Shown: in pieces, positions 5,586 through 46,703 of the stretch
Position numbering within the stretch: position 1 is the first letter of the stretch
How the letters are laid out: every line of letters begins with the position of its first letter
From: Bacteroidales bacterium
Lineage (GTDB): Bacteria; Bacteroidota; Bacteroidia; Bacteroidales; WCHB1-69
Reading direction: 5' to 3'
Assembly: GCA_017650305.1 (NCBI GenBank)
Contig: JAGCFD010000041.1
Span: 1 to 51,054 of the forward strand
DNA length: 51,054 nucleotides
Notes under the pieces: generated by a model
What the model was told of the DNA's origin: nothing
The model's database searches: none
What the model saw: only the letters and a program-made list of their open reading frames with translations
Position numbers and translations under genes: made by a program

Positions 5586-5635
5586 GAGTTGTCAGTTTTT
5601 TAGTGAACAGTGATCTGTGATCAGTTTGGGGTTAG
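5586..5635 (+). repeat. Short repeats after nqrF (AACAGTGATCNGTGATCAG type)
   Basis: TTAGTGAACAGTGATCTGTGATCAG-like units directly after nqrF. The same word family recurs after fumC at 14962. No hairpin terminator is evident here. Confidence 0.55.
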
Positions 5636-5715
5636 GAGCAGACTGCATCCTTACAGCTTGATGGGGAATTCGGGATTATTTTTTCACTCATCATTGTCTG
5701 TTGCTGATTTTTTTA

Positions 5716-5723
5716 TATTTTTG
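5716..5723 (+). promoter_or_regulatory. -7 box before the PolyVal kinase-like gene
   Basis: TATTTTTG, 57 bases before the ATG at 5780, in an AT-rich stretch. Confidence 0.6.
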
Positions 5724-5779
5724 CAGTTGTTAAATATGAAGAGGGATAGTCGGGTTTAAGATGTTTTTTATTATAGAGC

Positions 5780-6418
5780 ATGACCAATGACATTTTTGAA
5801 CAACTTTCACAAAGAAGCAGTGATGAGGAAACTGCGGAAAATCGCAGAATCCATGAAGTCGCCGATGAACTCCGTCGCCGCTGCAGACTATATGAAGCGC
5901 AATTTAGAGGCGGCGAAAAAGATGTAAATGCATTTGACAAAGAACAACGCATTACTGAACAGTATGCCAAAGAAAAAGGCATCTGGTTGTCTATGGCTGA
6001 CATACACAAATTGGGGGTTCCCGGTCCCAGCGGAAACGAAAACGATTTGTATGTTTCAGATGATCTTGTTTATAAAGTCAACAATCTGTTGAATTGTGGC
6101 AGCATTTTGCGCTTTTTAGACAGAACAATGTGGCATAATGAACTTTTTTACGACACTTCTTACACTTTGTTTGGATTTTGCGGATTCGAAGGTCGCACAG
6201 TCATGCCTGTGGTACAACAGCAACTGATCAAGAATGCACGGCCTGCCACCCAAATTGAGATAGACACCTATATGGCTGCTATTGGTTTTGACAATGGTGG
6301 AATCCAAGGCAAGTTTGAAAACAACCAATATGAAGTTTGGGATTTGTTACCACGGAATGTCTTGAAAGATGAGGAGGGCGACATCTATATCATCGATGCA
6401 GAAATCAATCACAAATAA
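5780..6418 (+). CDS. Protein with a PolyVal-type kinase-like domain
   Basis: A 212-residue protein. Residues about 1-70 are charged and probably helical. Residues about 80-210 resemble the serine/threonine/tyrosine kinase-like domain described in polyvalent proteins of phages and conjugative elements. Visible hallmarks are a short GPSGNEN glycine loop, VYKVNN with a candidate ATP-binding lysine, YTLFGFCGFEG, VVQQQ in the hinge, EIDTYMAAIGF, and an LLPRNVL...IYIIDAEI end that corresponds to the catalytic-loop asparagine and metal-binding aspartate. In known examples the domain is usually one module of a very large protein; here it is nearly alone. Substrate unknown. It has its own promoter and no operon partner. 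Confidence 0.65.
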   Translation: MTNDIFEQLSQRSSDEETAENRRIHEVADELRRRCRLYEAQFRGGEKDVNAFDKEQRITEQYAKEKGIWLSMADIHKLGVPGPSGNENDLYVSDDLVYKVNNLLNCGSILRFLDRTMWHNELFYDTSYTLFGFCGFEGRTVMPVVQQQLIKNARPATQIEIDTYMAAIGFDNGGIQGKFENNQYEVWDLLPRNVLKDEEGDIYIIDAEINHK

Positions 6419-6474
6419 CAGGGAACGACTGAGCAAATCCGTTTGTCAATATTGCGGAAATGAAATGGTTTTTC

Positions 6475-6482
6475 TATCTTTG
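6475..6482 (+). promoter_or_regulatory. Orphan -7 box pointing into the 3' end of a minus-strand gene
   Basis: TATCTTTG is a perfect consensus, but no plus-strand gene starts downstream. A transcript from it would run antisense to the gene at 6543-7313. It may be a chance match. Confidence 0.3.
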
Positions 6483-6542
6483 TTAGTTAAATTTATATAA
6501 ACCTACTTTGACATCGTTGTTATCGTTGAAACTTACCATAAT

Positions 6543-7313
6543 TTATGGTTCAAGCTTAAGAGTTAACACACCGTCTTTTGCTTCTTTAATAAAATCATTG
6601 AAAGATTCAGTCCATTTCTCCCAGTGCTCTTTTTCAATAGCGAAACGCTGTTCATCCGTCATTATATATTCAGGCATAAACGTCGTATAGACTATCGCCA
6701 TTGCATACACTCTGTCCTTATCTCTTTCGCCATCTTGATGGAATTCTCCTTCAAGATCAGAGCGAGTAAAACAAACACCATCTCTTACTCGGAATCCTTG
6801 CTTGGCACCTTCACCATATTCATCAATGTTTTTGTTGATGGCATCATTGATTTCAATTGGCATTGCAATGTCATTTCTTGACAAATAGCAGCACGCAATA
6901 TCATTGGAAGAAAGCGATTCGTCTTTTAGAAATCTCTCATTGTATCTATGCAGGAAGTGACTTGTATAAGCGTGAATTTGACGAATTAACTGCATAGGGC
7001 TACTTGGAGTATGGCGATAACCACTTGCTCCCCATTTAACAACAAATCGCTGCCTGTCAAAGAACACATCTACAAAGGAATCTGATTTGGGATGCTCAAC
7101 GCAACTAAGATTGTCAGCCCAAAAGAAGATGACATACTTATTGTTTGTACTTGGAACAGTGTATTCATACCATTTCCATACAGGGAACTTTTTTGCCTTA
7201 CGAAACTCCTTGATAGCCTTCGGCAAGAAATACACCTTTCTGTATTCCACTTTCTTCAAGTCATTAGCCAAGTGGTCATACATTTCCTTGTAAGTCATTG
7301 AGGGCGTAATCAT
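6543..7313 (-). CDS. Hypothetical protein, 256 residues
   Basis: I do not recognise a named family. The protein looks soluble: no signal peptide or membrane segment is visible. The N-terminal half is basic and aromatic (KYVIFFWADN, VDVFFDRQRFVVKWG). A central helix carries a HAYTSHFLHRYNERF motif with regularly spaced H, R and E residues that could be catalytic or metal-binding. The C-terminus (EHWEKWTESFNDF) is probably helical. The ATG at 7313 has a promoter box on the minus strand at 7384-7391. It lies in an accessory-looking stretch and converges with the kinase-like gene. Confidence 0.8.
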   Translation of the reverse strand: MITPSMTYKEMYDHLANDLKKVEYRKVYFLPKAIKEFRKAKKFPVWKWYEYTVPSTNNKYVIFFWADNLSCVEHPKSDSFVDVFFDRQRFVVKWGASGYRHTPSSPMQLIRQIHAYTSHFLHRYNERFLKDESLSSNDIACCYLSRNDIAMPIEINDAINKNIDEYGEGAKQGFRVRDGVCFTRSDLEGEFHQDGERDKDRVYAMAIVYTTFMPEYIMTDEQRFAIEKEHWEKWTESFNDFIKEAKDGVLTLKLEP

Positions 7314-7383
7314 ATATGCTATAAACCGTCTGTCTTATTTAGTTTTTAGGTTGCAAAAAAGAGTTGCCACAATAAACAGCGTG

Positions 7384-7391
7384 CAAAAGTA
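7384..7391 (-). promoter_or_regulatory. -7 box for the 256-residue hypothetical gene
   Basis: CAAAAGTA on the plus strand reads TACTTTTG on the minus strand, about 70 bases before the ATG at 7313. It is divergent from the box at 7403. Confidence 0.55.
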
Positions 7392-7402
7392 CATTTTTTT
7401 CG

Positions 7403-7410
7403 TATCTTTG
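7403..7410 (+). promoter_or_regulatory. -7 box before the DUF6150 gene
   Basis: Perfect TATCTTTG, 20 bases before the ATG at 7431; the leader is very short. Confidence 0.65.
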
Positions 7411-7430
7411 CCGTCGCAAAATCATCGGAT

Positions 7431-7769
7431 ATGAAAAAAACATTATTTCTTCTTCTCGCTCTGACGCTAGGATTTTGCCACCTTCAGGCGCAGAAAGTCT
7501 ATTCCACCAACTACAAGTCCGAGGCCGATGTGAAGGTGTATGTGACCGAGTACCGTTCCGAGGCGGATATCATCGTCTATAAGACCCAATACAGCTATGA
7601 GGCCAAGGAAAACAAGGGAATCTGGTATTTCACGCCATACCAGAGCGAGGCCAAAAAGAAAATCTATTTCACGGAATACCGGTCGGAGGCTGACATCAAA
7701 GTATATTTCACAACGTACAAGAGCGAAGCCGGCTGGAAAGACAAGTCGAAGATGCACCTGCTCTATTAG
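7431..7769 (+). CDS. Secreted tyrosine-rich repeat protein (DUF6150-like)
   Basis: A 112-residue secreted protein. Residues 1-20 are a clear signal peptide ending in LQAQ. The rest is six units of about 13 residues with the pattern K-V-Y-x-T-x-Y-x-S-E-A-D, for example KVYVTEYRSEAD. Alternating hydrophobic and polar residues suggest short beta strands, perhaps a small solenoid or fibre. The pattern matches what I know as DUF6150, a Bacteroidota family without assigned function. One unit (residues about 53-68) carries a 3-residue insertion. It is monocistronic and has its own promoter. Confidence 0.75.
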   Translation: MKKTLFLLLALTLGFCHLQAQKVYSTNYKSEADVKVYVTEYRSEADIIVYKTQYSYEAKENKGIWYFTPYQSEAKKKIYFTEYRSEADIKVYFTTYKSEAGWKDKSKMHLLY

Positions 7770-7852
7770 AAAGTTGAGTGACTTTTAAAAGCATCTTCAT
7801 AGTTTATTGTTTTATTTATTGTCAATTAACAGCGAAATATTCAGATTTTATT

Positions 7853-7860
7853 TATTTTTG
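7853..7860 (+). promoter_or_regulatory. -7 box for the structured leader
   Basis: TATTTTTG in an AT-rich stretch. Transcription starting a few bases downstream would produce a leader of about 270 nt before the lipoprotein ATG at 8138. Confidence 0.55.
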
Positions 7861-7865
7861 CAGCG

Positions 7866-8137
7866 TCAAAATGACAGCCGTTCTTTCTTTAAGACTATCC
7901 TAATATAGGAGCGTATAACTTTCCTTGTCTTTTGAAATTTCCACTTATACAAAGGCACAACAAGTTGTAAAGTTGTATTGCTCACGTGGCTACGTGGGCT
8001 TTACTTTATTGTTGTGCAAGGTCGTGGAAAACCTCAAAAGGCAAGAAAGTCGAGCCTGCGTTTCTTTTTGTTTGAAACCCACCTTTTATGGTCTCGGAAG
8101 GTGCGTGAGAATGCCGCGTGAGAGCATGAGATTATTT
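7866..8137 (+). ncRNA. Candidate structured leader RNA upstream of the PKD lipoprotein
   Basis: The 368-base gap 7770-8137 holds an elaborate fold. Outer stem: 7924-7935 pairs with 8034-8045 (12 pairs, one G-U), and after a small internal loop 7938-7944 pairs with 8024-8030 (7 pairs). Nested inside, 7955-7963 pairs with 8009-8017 (9 pairs) and 7967-7972 with 7999-8004 (6 pairs), capped by hairpin CACGT-GGCT-ACGTG at 7983-7996. Downstream are 8060-8064 with 8074-8078 and 8080-8085 with 8098-8103. The stretch is open in the lipoprotein frame, but only from a TTG, and the translation has no secretion features. It is therefore read as RNA: a cis-regulatory leader, a processed small RNA, or a palindromic mobile repeat. 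Confidence 0.55.
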
Positions 8138-9004
8138 ATGAAAAATCGCCTCGTAAAATGGATTGCTACACCATTAGTGCCTATTGTAGTATCTCTAGTG
8201 TTGTTTTCTGCGTGTGAAAAGCCCATGCCCAAAGCTAGTTTTGAATTTTACATCACAAATGGCAGTTATTATGCAACTTGTCATCTGTATAATTATTCTT
8301 TAGAATCAGACACATACGAATGGACATTGCATTGCCCTGATGGCACCATTGAGACCAGTTATTCATTCGAGACATCGTTCAGGTGTTACCAAACTGGAAC
8401 ATACAAGATAACATTGGTAGCGAAAAACCGTAATGGAAGTGATGTCGCTTCAAAGAACTTCACTATTTATTTTAATGGAGGTGGAGGAGGCGATGACAAT
8501 CCCACAGCCTCCGCATACACCATCACTTGGCTACGTCTTGAGGAAATCCCGATGTTGGACGGGAACAACGCTTCCTGGGACACTGGCCTTTTTGGAAATG
8601 GGAATCCCGATATCAAGTTTAAAATCCAAAATTCAACCAACACAACAACATACTACACCAGCCCAGTAAAAAGCGATGTTTCATCATCAGATTTACCGGT
8701 AACATGGTACAATGTAAACACCACACTTGAAAAAGGTGTAGAATACCGCATAGTATTCATTGATCAAGATGAAGGCATTGACGACGATGACATCATGGTT
8801 AATTGTGTCTGGAAACAACTTGGATATTTCTCCCCTGATGCTACTTCCTTCACTTGGATTTCCACAGACGGCACCGTCAGGTTCACAGTAGGTTTGTCTT
8901 GGATTTACAGCAAGGAAGGTAATGACAACCTCACACAAGGTGTATTGGACAATGAAAGAACCGAAGGGGACAACACACCTATCCATCCTCAACAACCAAA
9001 CTAA
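8138..9004 (+). CDS. PKD-domain lipoprotein
   Basis: Cell-surface or periplasmic lipoprotein of 288 residues. The ATG at 8138 is chosen because MKNRLVKWIATPLVP starts a signal peptide ending in the lipobox LFSAC (Cys26); the upstream in-frame extension would bury it. Residues about 33-115 form a PKD-like immunoglobulin fold with the typical YEWTLHCPDG and GTYKITLVAKN strands. A Gly-rich linker (GGGGG, about 117-122) joins a second beta domain (about 128-270) of unknown type, followed by a polar tail. It is probably a surface-anchored binding protein. It is preceded by the structured leader and followed by a strong hairpin at 9081-9117. Confidence 0.8.
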   Translation: MKNRLVKWIATPLVPIVVSLVLFSACEKPMPKASFEFYITNGSYYATCHLYNYSLESDTYEWTLHCPDGTIETSYSFETSFRCYQTGTYKITLVAKNRNGSDVASKNFTIYFNGGGGGDDNPTASAYTITWLRLEEIPMLDGNNASWDTGLFGNGNPDIKFKIQNSTNTTTYYTSPVKSDVSSSDLPVTWYNVNTTLEKGVEYRIVFIDQDEGIDDDDIMVNCVWKQLGYFSPDATSFTWISTDGTVRFTVGLSWIYSKEGNDNLTQGVLDNERTEGDNTPIHPQQPN

Positions 9005-9080
9005 TTGCTGGCTTAAAGTTCTGCTTAAAAATATTCTTAGGAAGTGGCTAAACATTTACATTAACCTAAGATGTAATATG

Positions 9081-9117
9081 GAGCTTATATGCATGGTGCT
9101 TTCATGCATATAAGCTC
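9081..9117 (+). terminator. Perfect 15-bp hairpin after the lipoprotein gene
   Basis: GAGCTTATATGCATG (9081-9095), a 7-base loop, then CATGCATATAAGCTC (9103-9117), followed by TAAAATTTTA. The poor T-run makes it a weak intrinsic terminator or an mRNA-stabilising 3' end. The rest of the 290-base gap (9005-9294) shows nothing else apart from the promoter box at 9258. Confidence 0.6.
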
Positions 9118-9257
9118 TAAAATTTTATAGATCAAGTATCTATTTAGAATAGCGCCCAAATTTGTTCGCGTCTGTCGTGCCTCACGCATGGCGAAGATCA
9201 TCAGATCCAAGCAAATCCTTTGTTTTTTTCAAGATGACAACATATCGTAAAATTGTG

Positions 9258-9265
9258 TACATTTG
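9258..9265 (+). promoter_or_regulatory. -7 box before the YtxH-like gene
   Basis: TACATTTG, 29 bases before the ATG at 9295. Confidence 0.6.
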
Positions 9266-9294
9266 CAGCCGTTAAACACAAAAAACTACTCGAT

Positions 9295-9522
9295 ATGAAA
9301 GCATCTGAAATTTTAGCATTCGTAGCTGGTGCAGCTGCTGCCACTGGCATCACCCTGCTCTGTACAACAGACAAAGGCAAAGAGTTGTGCAAAAAGGTAT
9401 CCAGCAAACTGACCAAAGAAGAGATCGACAAACTCATTGAGAAACTGAAGAATCGCAGAGACGAAGCCCCCAGTGAAGAAGATGTGGTCTTCGACGACAT
9501 CATCAACGAAGACAATGAGTAA
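9295..9522 (+). CDS. YtxH-like small membrane protein
   Basis: A 75-residue protein. An N-terminal hydrophobic helix with small residues (FVAGAAAATGITLL, about 8-21) is followed by TDKGKELCKK and a charged, probably coiled-coil region that ends in acidic residues. This is the layout of YtxH/gas-vesicle-type general stress proteins. The ATG at 9295 is preferred because it places the membrane helix at the N-terminus and follows a promoter box at 9258; an upstream in-frame TTG overlaps that box. It is the first gene of a small envelope cluster with the holin-like and basic proteins downstream. Confidence 0.7.
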   Translation: MKASEILAFVAGAAAATGITLLCTTDKGKELCKKVSSKLTKEEIDKLIEKLKNRRDEAPSEEDVVFDDIINEDNE

Positions 9523-46348: not shown

Positions 46349-46357
46349 CAGAGACAC

Positions 46358-46697
46358 AAAGGAACCTCGTTGTCGCTGCCATCTCCGGATGGGAGAGGAA
46401 AGTCCGGGCAACACAGAGCGCCATACTTCCTAACGGGAAGGCATCTTTCGGGATGACAGACAGTGCCACAGAAAAGATACCGCCGGCGCAAGCCGGTAAG
46501 GGTGAAATCGCGAGGCAAGAGCTCACGCCAGTGTTCAGTGATGACGCTGAGGGTAAACCTTATGGGTTGAAAGACCAAATAAACCGAGGCTTGAGGGTTG
46601 CTCGCCCGACTCGGAGGGTAGGTTGATTGAGACACAGGGTGACCTGCGTCCTAGATAAATGACAACATAGTACAGAACCCGGCTTATAGGTTCCTTT
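46358..46697 (+). ncRNA. rnpB: RNase P RNA, bacterial type A
   Basis: Catalytic RNA of ribonuclease P, which removes 5' leaders from tRNA precursors. The terminal helix P1 forms between AAAGGAACCT (46358-46367) and AGGTTCCTTTT (46688-46698). Universal segments are present in order: GAGGAAAGTCCGGGC (about 46394), ACAGAAAAGATACCGCC (J/P4 region), GGTAAGGGTGAAA, and near the 3' end GATAAATGA...ACAGAACCCGGCTTAT. The length of about 340 nt fits type A. No promoter box is visible between it and dnaN, so it may be transcribed through dnaN and processed, or have a promoter within dnaN. Confidence 0.95.
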
Positions 46698-46703
46698 TCT
46701 ACA

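Follow-up and report, generated by a model that had tools for sequence, protein, structure and literature searches.

A structured leader RNA before a predicted surface lipoprotein gene belongs to a Bacteroidota RNA family and is probably a transcription-attenuation leader

The window analyzed here is a whole stretch of 51,054 nucleotides from contig JAGCFD010000041.1 of a Bacteroidales bacterium (GenBank assembly GCA_017650305.1), and its positions 7853-8137, which lie between a promoter box and the ATG of a predicted surface lipoprotein gene, raise the question of what kind of element forms so elaborate a fold in such a place. The initial annotation considered the fold to be selected rather than due to chance, recognized no known riboswitch class in it, and offered three options: a new cis-regulatory RNA, a stand-alone small RNA, or a palindromic mobile repeat captured before a gene. 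When positions 7860-8140 were folded, the minimum free energy (MFE) was -88.4 kcal/mol, compared to a mean of -67.6 (sd, 4.7) for shuffled sequences (z, -4.39), and none of 200 dinucleotide shuffles was as low. The parts of the region, all on the + strand, are as follows.

7853..7860, +: -7 promoter box TATTTTTG (Bacteroidota TAnnTTTG), seen in the sequence
7908..7913, +: GGAGCG, 3' strand of a P0-like hairpin (7879-7885 with 7907-7913) of the MFE fold
7925..8045, +: RNA core, matched by covariance model R2 with 117.5 bits and an E of 1.8e-24
7925..7935, +: P1, 5' strand; pairs with 8034-8044; permutation z of -42
7929..7934, +: hairpin A, 5' strand CUUUUG; can pair with 7950-7955; z of -7.5, 0 of 200 permutations (150 RNAs)
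7938..7944, +: loop A, UUUCCAC; kissing partner of loop B
7950..7955, +: hairpin A, 3' strand CAAAGG; partner of 7929-7934
7955..7963, +: P3, 5' strand; pairs with 8009-8017; z of -34
7967..7971, +: P4 lower stem, 5' strand GUAAA; consensus pairing with 8000-8004
7980..7987, +: segment 1, P4 5' arm GCUCACGU; pairs with segment 2
7992..7999, +: segment 2, P4 3' arm ACGUGGGC; common to P4 and the tail helix P4'
8000..8004, +: P4 lower stem, 3' strand UUUAC; partner of 7967-7971
8009..8017, +: P3, 3' strand; partner of 7955-7963
8019..8022, +: hairpin B, 5' strand AGGU; pairs with 8031-8034; z of -7.3 (150 RNAs)
8024..8030, +: loop B, GUGGAAA; kissing partner of loop A
8031..8034, +: hairpin B, 3' strand ACCU; partner of 8019-8022
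8034..8044, +: P1, 3' strand; partner of 7925-7935
8053..8061, +: segment 3, tail AGCCUGCGU; complementary to segment 2 (helix P4')
8062..8069, +: U-rich run UUCUUUUU directly after the tail, backed by T-run counts across members
8090..8095, +: segment 4, GGUCUC, likely the P6 3' strand; can pair with the tail region GAGCC (8052-8056)
8138..9004, +: predicted surface lipoprotein gene, with a lipobox-like FSAC and a weak PKD match (E of 3.5e-4; 21.0 bits, under the Pfam cut-off of 23.5)

The -7 box was present where it had been annotated, and the annotated CACGT/ACGTG tetraloop hairpin was recovered in the MFE fold at 7980-7987 with 7992-7999, with a 4-base loop. Of the inner stem described at 7955-7963 with 8009-8017, the MFE fold paired 7955-7962 with 8010-8017. 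For the second inner stem, annotated at 7967-7972 with 7999-8004, the MFE register was shifted to 7967-7973 with 8003-8009, but the homologues backed the annotated one, at 7967-7971 with 8000-8004, and 97.6% of the cells of this P4 lower stem were paired in 49 sequences. Two further hairpins had been expected up to 8103; one was found at 8060-8064 with 8074-8078, but the second was instead a longer hairpin at 8084-8131. The interrupted outer stem proposed at 7924-7944 with 8024-8045 did appear in the MFE fold, as 7925-7935 with 8034-8044 and 7938-7944 with 8024-8030, prolonged by 7918-7923 with 8045-8050, but comparison of the homologues favors reading it as helix P1 and a separate kissing contact between the loops of hairpins A and B. 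As read from alignments, GGAGCG at 7908-7913 could alternatively pair with CGUUUC at 8059-8064, and an AGC..GCU P0-like motif was found within the 40 nt 5' of the core in 106 of 150 members. The element extends 3' of the core through the tail and the U-run (8053-8069), and its end is probably near 8095.

A blastn search of 40 genomes of the genus found six strong copies in four other genomes (78 to 84% identity) and three more distant copies, and the alignment of these first homologues had the same fold; at 10 of its 43 pairs, one or more sequences had replaced both bases. A covariance model built from ten sequences (R1) matched 34 of the 40 genus genomes at an E of ≤0.01 and 74 of 104 genomes of the same family at an E of ≤0.001. 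A model built from 49 members (R2) matched, at an E of ≤1e-5, at least 125 of 393 genomes of the order, at least 32 of 395 genomes of the phylum, and 3 of 197 genomes in another class of the phylum; in searches of more than 40 genomes, few candidates were scored per genome (9 for the order and phylum, 34 for the family, and 18 for the other class and for a control), so that the order and phylum tallies, as well as the copy numbers, are floors. Copies per matching genome ranged from 1 to 23. At an E of ≤0.001, 23 matches were found in an Alistipes senegalensis MAG, 12 in a Bacteroides sp. MAG, and 8 in a Prevotella sp. MAG, while among isolates Chryseobacterium defluvii had 3, Myroides odoratimimus and Flavobacterium soli 2 each, and Belliella kenyensis 1. 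In the control, the order of a MAG titled Clostridiales, 2 of 197 genomes were matched at an E of ≤0.001 (42 and 35 bits), one of them at an E of ≤1e-5. We rejected both as members of the family, as both were without the AGGU/ACCU hairpin and the kissing loops. At three control loci, Shine-Dalgarno-like sites preceded 9 of 16 open reading frames (ORFs), which fits a non-Bacteroidota origin. A DNA pattern scan of named genomes returned at least 118 stretches; among the 80 matches listed, 78 came from titled Bacteroidota taxa and the other two from one unnamed bacterium and the Clostridiales MAG mentioned above. The latter was attributed to chance, the covariance model finding nothing there at an E of ≤0.001. 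In the viral collection, the pattern was found in 8 stretches.

The base changes among these copies were then compared to those of shuffled alignments. In 49 homologues, 96.9% of the pair cells were standard, versus 73.5% after shuffling and 34 to 44% after sliding, and 422 cells carried double changes, versus 122 in shuffles. In 100 sequences, 95.5% of 3,577 pair cells were standard, versus 65.7% shuffled and 35 to 42% slid, and 1,059 cells carried double changes, versus 322 in shuffles; alignments A3 to A5 and A7 were fitted to the model, which favors the model helices (A4 being 51 loci without L059 and L072, and A5 being 100 of 126 loci, L039 to L145, L264 to L281, and L290). These results uphold the view that the fold was selected, and the covariance-model search that had been suggested as a check thus produced both homologues and compensated helices. 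It is close to certain that this RNA family exists and occupies mRNA leaders.

Single helices were examined with 200 permutations within four groups of 150 RNAs, from which duplicate cores had been removed and L339 left out. None of the 200 was as low as the native value for P1, P3, and hairpins A and B, with the z values given above, or for the kissing contact (z, -26), the tail helix (z, -10.9; extended, -15.4), and P6 (z, -6.5). The covariance model did not include the tail, either of hairpins A and B, or P6 as a helix. The P4 arms, permuted against each other, likewise gave 0 of 200 as low, with a mean of 73.6 that was spoiled by the program's no-duplex value. In the 100 sequences, both sides changed in 9 of the 10 model pairs of P1, the two P4 arms paired in 98.9% of the cells, and the kissing loops paired in 99.3% of the cells, with double changes in all 7 of their pairs; the native kissing pair beat 20 swaps in 97 of the 100 members. 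In hairpin B, AGGU/ACCU was read as AGGC/GCCU in relatives. Comparison of the sequences shows that hairpin A, the long P3-P4 hairpin, and hairpin B all lie within P1. Because hairpin A and P1 overlap in the window and share bases, both cannot be complete, and this overlap is possibly a second switch. The best conserved stretches were P4 and hairpin B, which are both paired in the model, and the strong conservation of P4 would need no further cause, since one sequence must fit several partners.

We also determined how the RNA is oriented to its surroundings. The paired columns held 217 G-U cells versus 17 A-C cells (130 versus 16 without the conserved wobble), a count that the fitting of the alignments to the model may tilt; with G-U so far above A-C, the sense strand is taken to be the selected RNA form. 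TAnnTTTG boxes were found at -150 to -25 from the core in 110 of 145 cases, compared to 8 of 145 in a control interval at -400 to -275. An ORF of at least 55 amino acids started within 480 nt 3' of the RNA at 113 of 124 loci, in 89 of these 113 at a distance of 20 to 126 nt, and an ORF of at least 100 amino acids started within 480 nt downstream at 98 of 110 loci, compared to 38 of 110 for the mirror image. Over all, the distance from the RNA to the chosen ATG was 1 to 473 nt. The initial annotation had warned that a TTG-started frame through the region might be misannotated as protein; that frame (7925..9004) exists and is not conserved, and we rejected a coding explanation of the leader, since 109 of 112 homologous leaders had an in-frame stop between the core and the ATG. 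Of the options first proposed, a new cis-regulatory RNA is the best supported, by the compensatory changes, the lack of an Rfam match (see below), the promoter upstream, and the same-strand gene downstream. Several copies outside the Bacteroidales (within L120 to L144) were seen between a small divergent gene, in some cases HTH-like, and a SusC/RagA-like receptor gene starting 250 to 440 nt downstream. Among L265 to L281, GGAGG-like stretches within the A-rich upstream leader of several copies and a well-conserved ACCUC in hairpin B recall Shine-Dalgarno and anti-Shine-Dalgarno sequences, which would be odd in a phylum making so little use of them.

Downstream of the core, the tail repeats the sense of the P4 5' arm and is followed by the U-run. 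Four consecutive segments can therefore be named that pair 1:2 (P4), 2:3 (P4', then the U-run), and 3:4 (P6), the last being the weakest helix (tail with downstream duplex, -9.1 kcal/mol in the window). Arm to arm, the tail helix was stronger than P4, both in the window (-15.0 versus -12.5 kcal/mol) and in the means (-15.1 versus -12.8), but when the lower stem was counted, P4 was stronger than P4' in 76 of 100 members (means, -18.6 versus -16.6) and the tail was stronger in 24. The two helices are thus of nearly equal strength. With the conserved CGUGG/CCACG block left out of account, the tail paired better than the 30-swap median in 69 of 96 cases and better than every swap in 10. On reading, the tail was also seen to follow P4: both had changed in Myroides (CAUGGGC with ACCCAUGCC), in a Prevotella copy (GUGUGAGC with GCUCACAC), and at locus L384 (GGACGC with GCGUCC), and in Myroides and L384 these were sequence swaps that kept the tail paired. 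A run of at least six T occurred in the 34 nt 3' of the core in 77 of 100 members, compared to 17 of 399 control windows, and at least four T occurred within -4 to +6 nt of the tail-duplex end in 94 of 100; 5 of 100 were without even four T. The U-run of the window is broken by a C, and on reading, the U-runs of some members outside the Bacteroidales are weak. The locus and its relatives thus carry helices that exclude each other, with a U-run at one of the two, and the tail covaries with the P4 3' arm; a promoter lies upstream and a gene downstream on the same strand.

Together, these features suggest that the leader RNA, as a member of a Bacteroidota-wide structured family, is probably a cis-acting transcription-attenuation leader. 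The 5' leader of the lipoprotein mRNA would span about 7866-8137, its start being placed by the -7 box. As the polymerase leaves the core, P4 (gene on) would compete with P4' (intrinsic-terminator-like, gene off), and a signal that stabilizes the P1/kissing/P3 domain, or a bound protein or small molecule, would determine whether the gene is read. Many surface genes and some phage-defense genes may have their expression set in this way. Attenuation, with the termination that we infer, explains most economically the tail, the U-run after it, and the way in which the tail competes with P4. In its favor, the ATG of the methylase group comes straight after the U-run, so that a second promoter would find no space there. 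It is weakened by the loop that P4' must close (about 50 to 70 nt, long for an intrinsic terminator), by the greater strength of P4 with its lower stem, and by the lack of a shared metabolic theme among the downstream genes, which is unusual for a riboswitch.

Control of translation is an unlikely alternative, in which P6 and the tail would hide or free the initiation region and the U-run would be an S1-type ribosome-binding stretch. Bacteroidota hardly use Shine-Dalgarno sequences, and this idea would fit that habit, the P6 signal, and the methylase group, in which the ATG directly follows the U-run; the U-run, however, coincides with the P4' duplex end (94 of 100) whatever the distance to the ATG. 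For Flavobacterium psychrophilum, scarce Shine-Dalgarno use is stated in a transcriptome paper (PMC9723704). Also improbable is a trans-acting, terminated small RNA of ~200 nt as the main product, with the gene expressed only by read-through. The U-runs and the many paralogues per genome, such as those of the Alistipes senegalensis and Bacteroides sp. MAGs, would agree with this, but the downstream gene is usually close and of a biased kind, and the unpaired parts are alike while the stems differ, which is the reverse of a trans-pairing seed; in addition, the loops already pair mutually. A stand-alone small RNA, one of the options first proposed, could still arise as a by-product of termination.

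The type of downstream gene, which had been named as a point to check, leaned to exported or surface proteins. By a hydropathy rule rather than SignalP, a signal-peptide-like start was found in 61 of 99 downstream proteins (≥100 amino acids), compared to 10 of 84 upstream neighbors; in a second set, from Alistipes and other named genomes, the share was lower, at 21 of 46. For domain searches, 100 of 113 downstream ORFs were used (set A6; nine were excluded as near-duplicate or truncated and four as short and doubtful), as were 100 of 107 upstream ORFs (set A8). Among the 25 of 120 Pfam families listed for the downstream proteins, there were BspA-type repeats (7), TonB-dependent receptor plugs (7), MmeI-type methylases (6), PLD-like (5) and SNF2-related (5) domains, and type III restriction helicase domains (4), and T9SS sorting domains were found in 6 proteins with Pfam and 7 with NCBIfam. 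Among the 25 of 96 families listed for the upstream neighbors, there was no recurring surface family, and many were housekeeping, such as phosphoglycerate kinase, carbamoyltransferase, and dihydroorotate dehydrogenase.

Defense genes gave a different picture. At an E of ≤1e-5, 106 PADLOC families were matched downstream versus 161 upstream (100 proteins each), the latter including GajB, Avs2, and candidate PDC models; the commonest families matched 7 members downstream and 3 upstream (among the 25 families listed per scan), and many of the matches were to generic helicase or methylase models. When proteins picked by eye were scanned, 12 of 20 were matched (7 of 10 at an E of ≤0.01 and 5 of 10 at an E of ≤0.001). 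ZorA was matched twice downstream (E of 1e-163 and 6e-102), and other matches were HsdR-like, type IV restriction-like, Mrr, AbiEi-like, an AbiL-like AAA protein, and a reverse transcriptase; the AbiEi-like, AbiL-like, and reverse transcriptase genes start 288 to 473 nt after the RNA, a looser link. The reverse transcriptase, which starts 473 nt after the copy at L141, is of the retron/DRT type (RVT_1, E of 6e-21). In the genome of the window itself, which is 84.65% complete, two copies of the RNA were found, the second (L290:2001-2121, contig C4) lying 88 nt before a type IIG restriction enzyme-methyltransferase gene (E of 5e-99). The link to defense genes is a proposal drawn from single strong matches, the PADLOC families being more numerous upstream than downstream.

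The genes behind the RNA thus do not form one pathway but comprise BspA repeats, SusC, T9SS, restriction, Zorya, Abi, and more. They lean to a theme of exposure to the outside, which was measured for exported proteins and is proposed for the phage-defense half. We offer as a tentative extension, less probable than attenuation itself, that a bistable leader class forms a phylum-wide RNA regulon that puts surface and phage-defense genes under a common signal, tuning phage receptors and restriction, Zorya, or Abi together. If so, a single class of RNA that occurs as many as 23 times in a genome, before surface genes and some defense genes, would be a large unrecognized regulon. To our knowledge, few leader RNAs are understood in this phylum, which is dominant in the gut and rumen. 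The covarying kissing loops and the four-segment switch make the mechanism directly testable by point mutations, and the alignments allow a covariance model for general annotation of the family.

The many copies could also suggest a palindromic mobile DNA repeat (MITE-like) captured before genes, as had been considered initially. We compared 18 copies (L264 to L281) from two genomes, each of which carries nine or more. They had much of the leader, P0, P4, the tail, and P6 in common, but P1, the kissing loops, and P3 differed with the pairing kept, and their downstream genes differed as well, which argues against a recently spread repeat. We also fetched ten relatives around the downstream holin gene and ran the covariance model on eight; no RNA was found in the stretches of these eight. 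In the three that also held nqrF (G015, G026, and G012), this gene neighbors the ytxH-holin pair, with no match to the four genes of 5586-9296 and a gap of ~230 nt in G015, ~760 nt in G026, and ~1,800 nt with other sequence in G012. The missing of 5586-9296 at the same place in three relatives indicates that the leader and the lipoprotein gene are part of an accessory insert. This absence and a weak score of the opposite strand in 8 of 51 loci would accord with a mobile repeat, but the copies of one genome share unpaired parts and have different, compensated stems, their orientation to promoter and gene is fixed rather than independent of it, the copies are not near-identical, and G-U far exceeds A-C, making this origin very improbable. 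The insert sits between nqrF and a YtxH-like gene, and directly upstream of the leader, at 7431-7769, a short protein with a signal-like start and YxSEADxxVY-type repeats was seen. Elsewhere in the window, 46357-46702 is a bacterial class A RNase P RNA (253 bits). At another locus, a tmRNA gene (L060:1386-1776), a typical island site, lies near the copy preceding a PLD-SNF2 helicase gene.

That the RNA is a divergent member of a known family of the same phylum (6S-flavo, Flavo-1, Bacteroidales-1, or the like), as its rod-like, 6S-resembling overall shape might hint, is the least probable explanation, since with Rfam 15 no match at the gathering score was found over the RNA in the window or in 49 loci carrying it, and in a relaxed search the best E-value in the window was 1.1 and none of 20 diverse loci had a match with an E of ≤1. 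The impression that no known riboswitch class is present agrees with this. Flavo-1 (RF01705) and Bacteroidales-1 (RF01693) are structured RNAs of Bacteroidota (PMC2864571); the present RNAs have no Rfam match, and unlike Flavo-1, which is reported in either orientation to transcripts (PMC9723704), they keep one orientation. Four palindromic candidates, HMP2_4078, HMP2_4205, HMP2_1065, and HMP2_1032, are described in a human-microbiome survey as mostly or only from Bacteroidetes and 80 to 132 bp long, three of the four being predicted terminators (PMC8040213), and judged from that description, they may overlap with our family. The available parts of the F. psychrophilum (PMC9723704) and Bacteroides thetaiotaomicron (PMC7366714) transcriptome papers report structured or long 5' untranslated regions and contained nothing that could be matched to the element. 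The family is apparently undescribed, being absent from Rfam 15 and not found in literature searches.

Among known systems, loop-loop contacts have their textbook case in the purine riboswitch, and the present RNAs resemble orphan riboswitch-like classes in that a loop-loop contact holds a covarying junction together next to the expression platform; the comparison did reveal a conserved folded domain, with a possible expression platform adjoining it. Unlike those of riboswitches, the loops and stems here vary freely in sequence, and the genes do not belong to one metabolic pathway. Transcription-attenuation leaders are known as trp-type four-segment attenuators and as terminator riboswitches. 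Compared to trp-type attenuators, the U-run here follows the 2:3 helix, no conserved reading frame runs into the gene (109 of 112 being stopped), a kissing-loop domain is present, and the downstream genes have no common pathway. With transcription-attenuation leaders in general, the family shares the 1:2, 2:3, and 3:4 pairings, the U-run, the promoter upstream, and the gene downstream.
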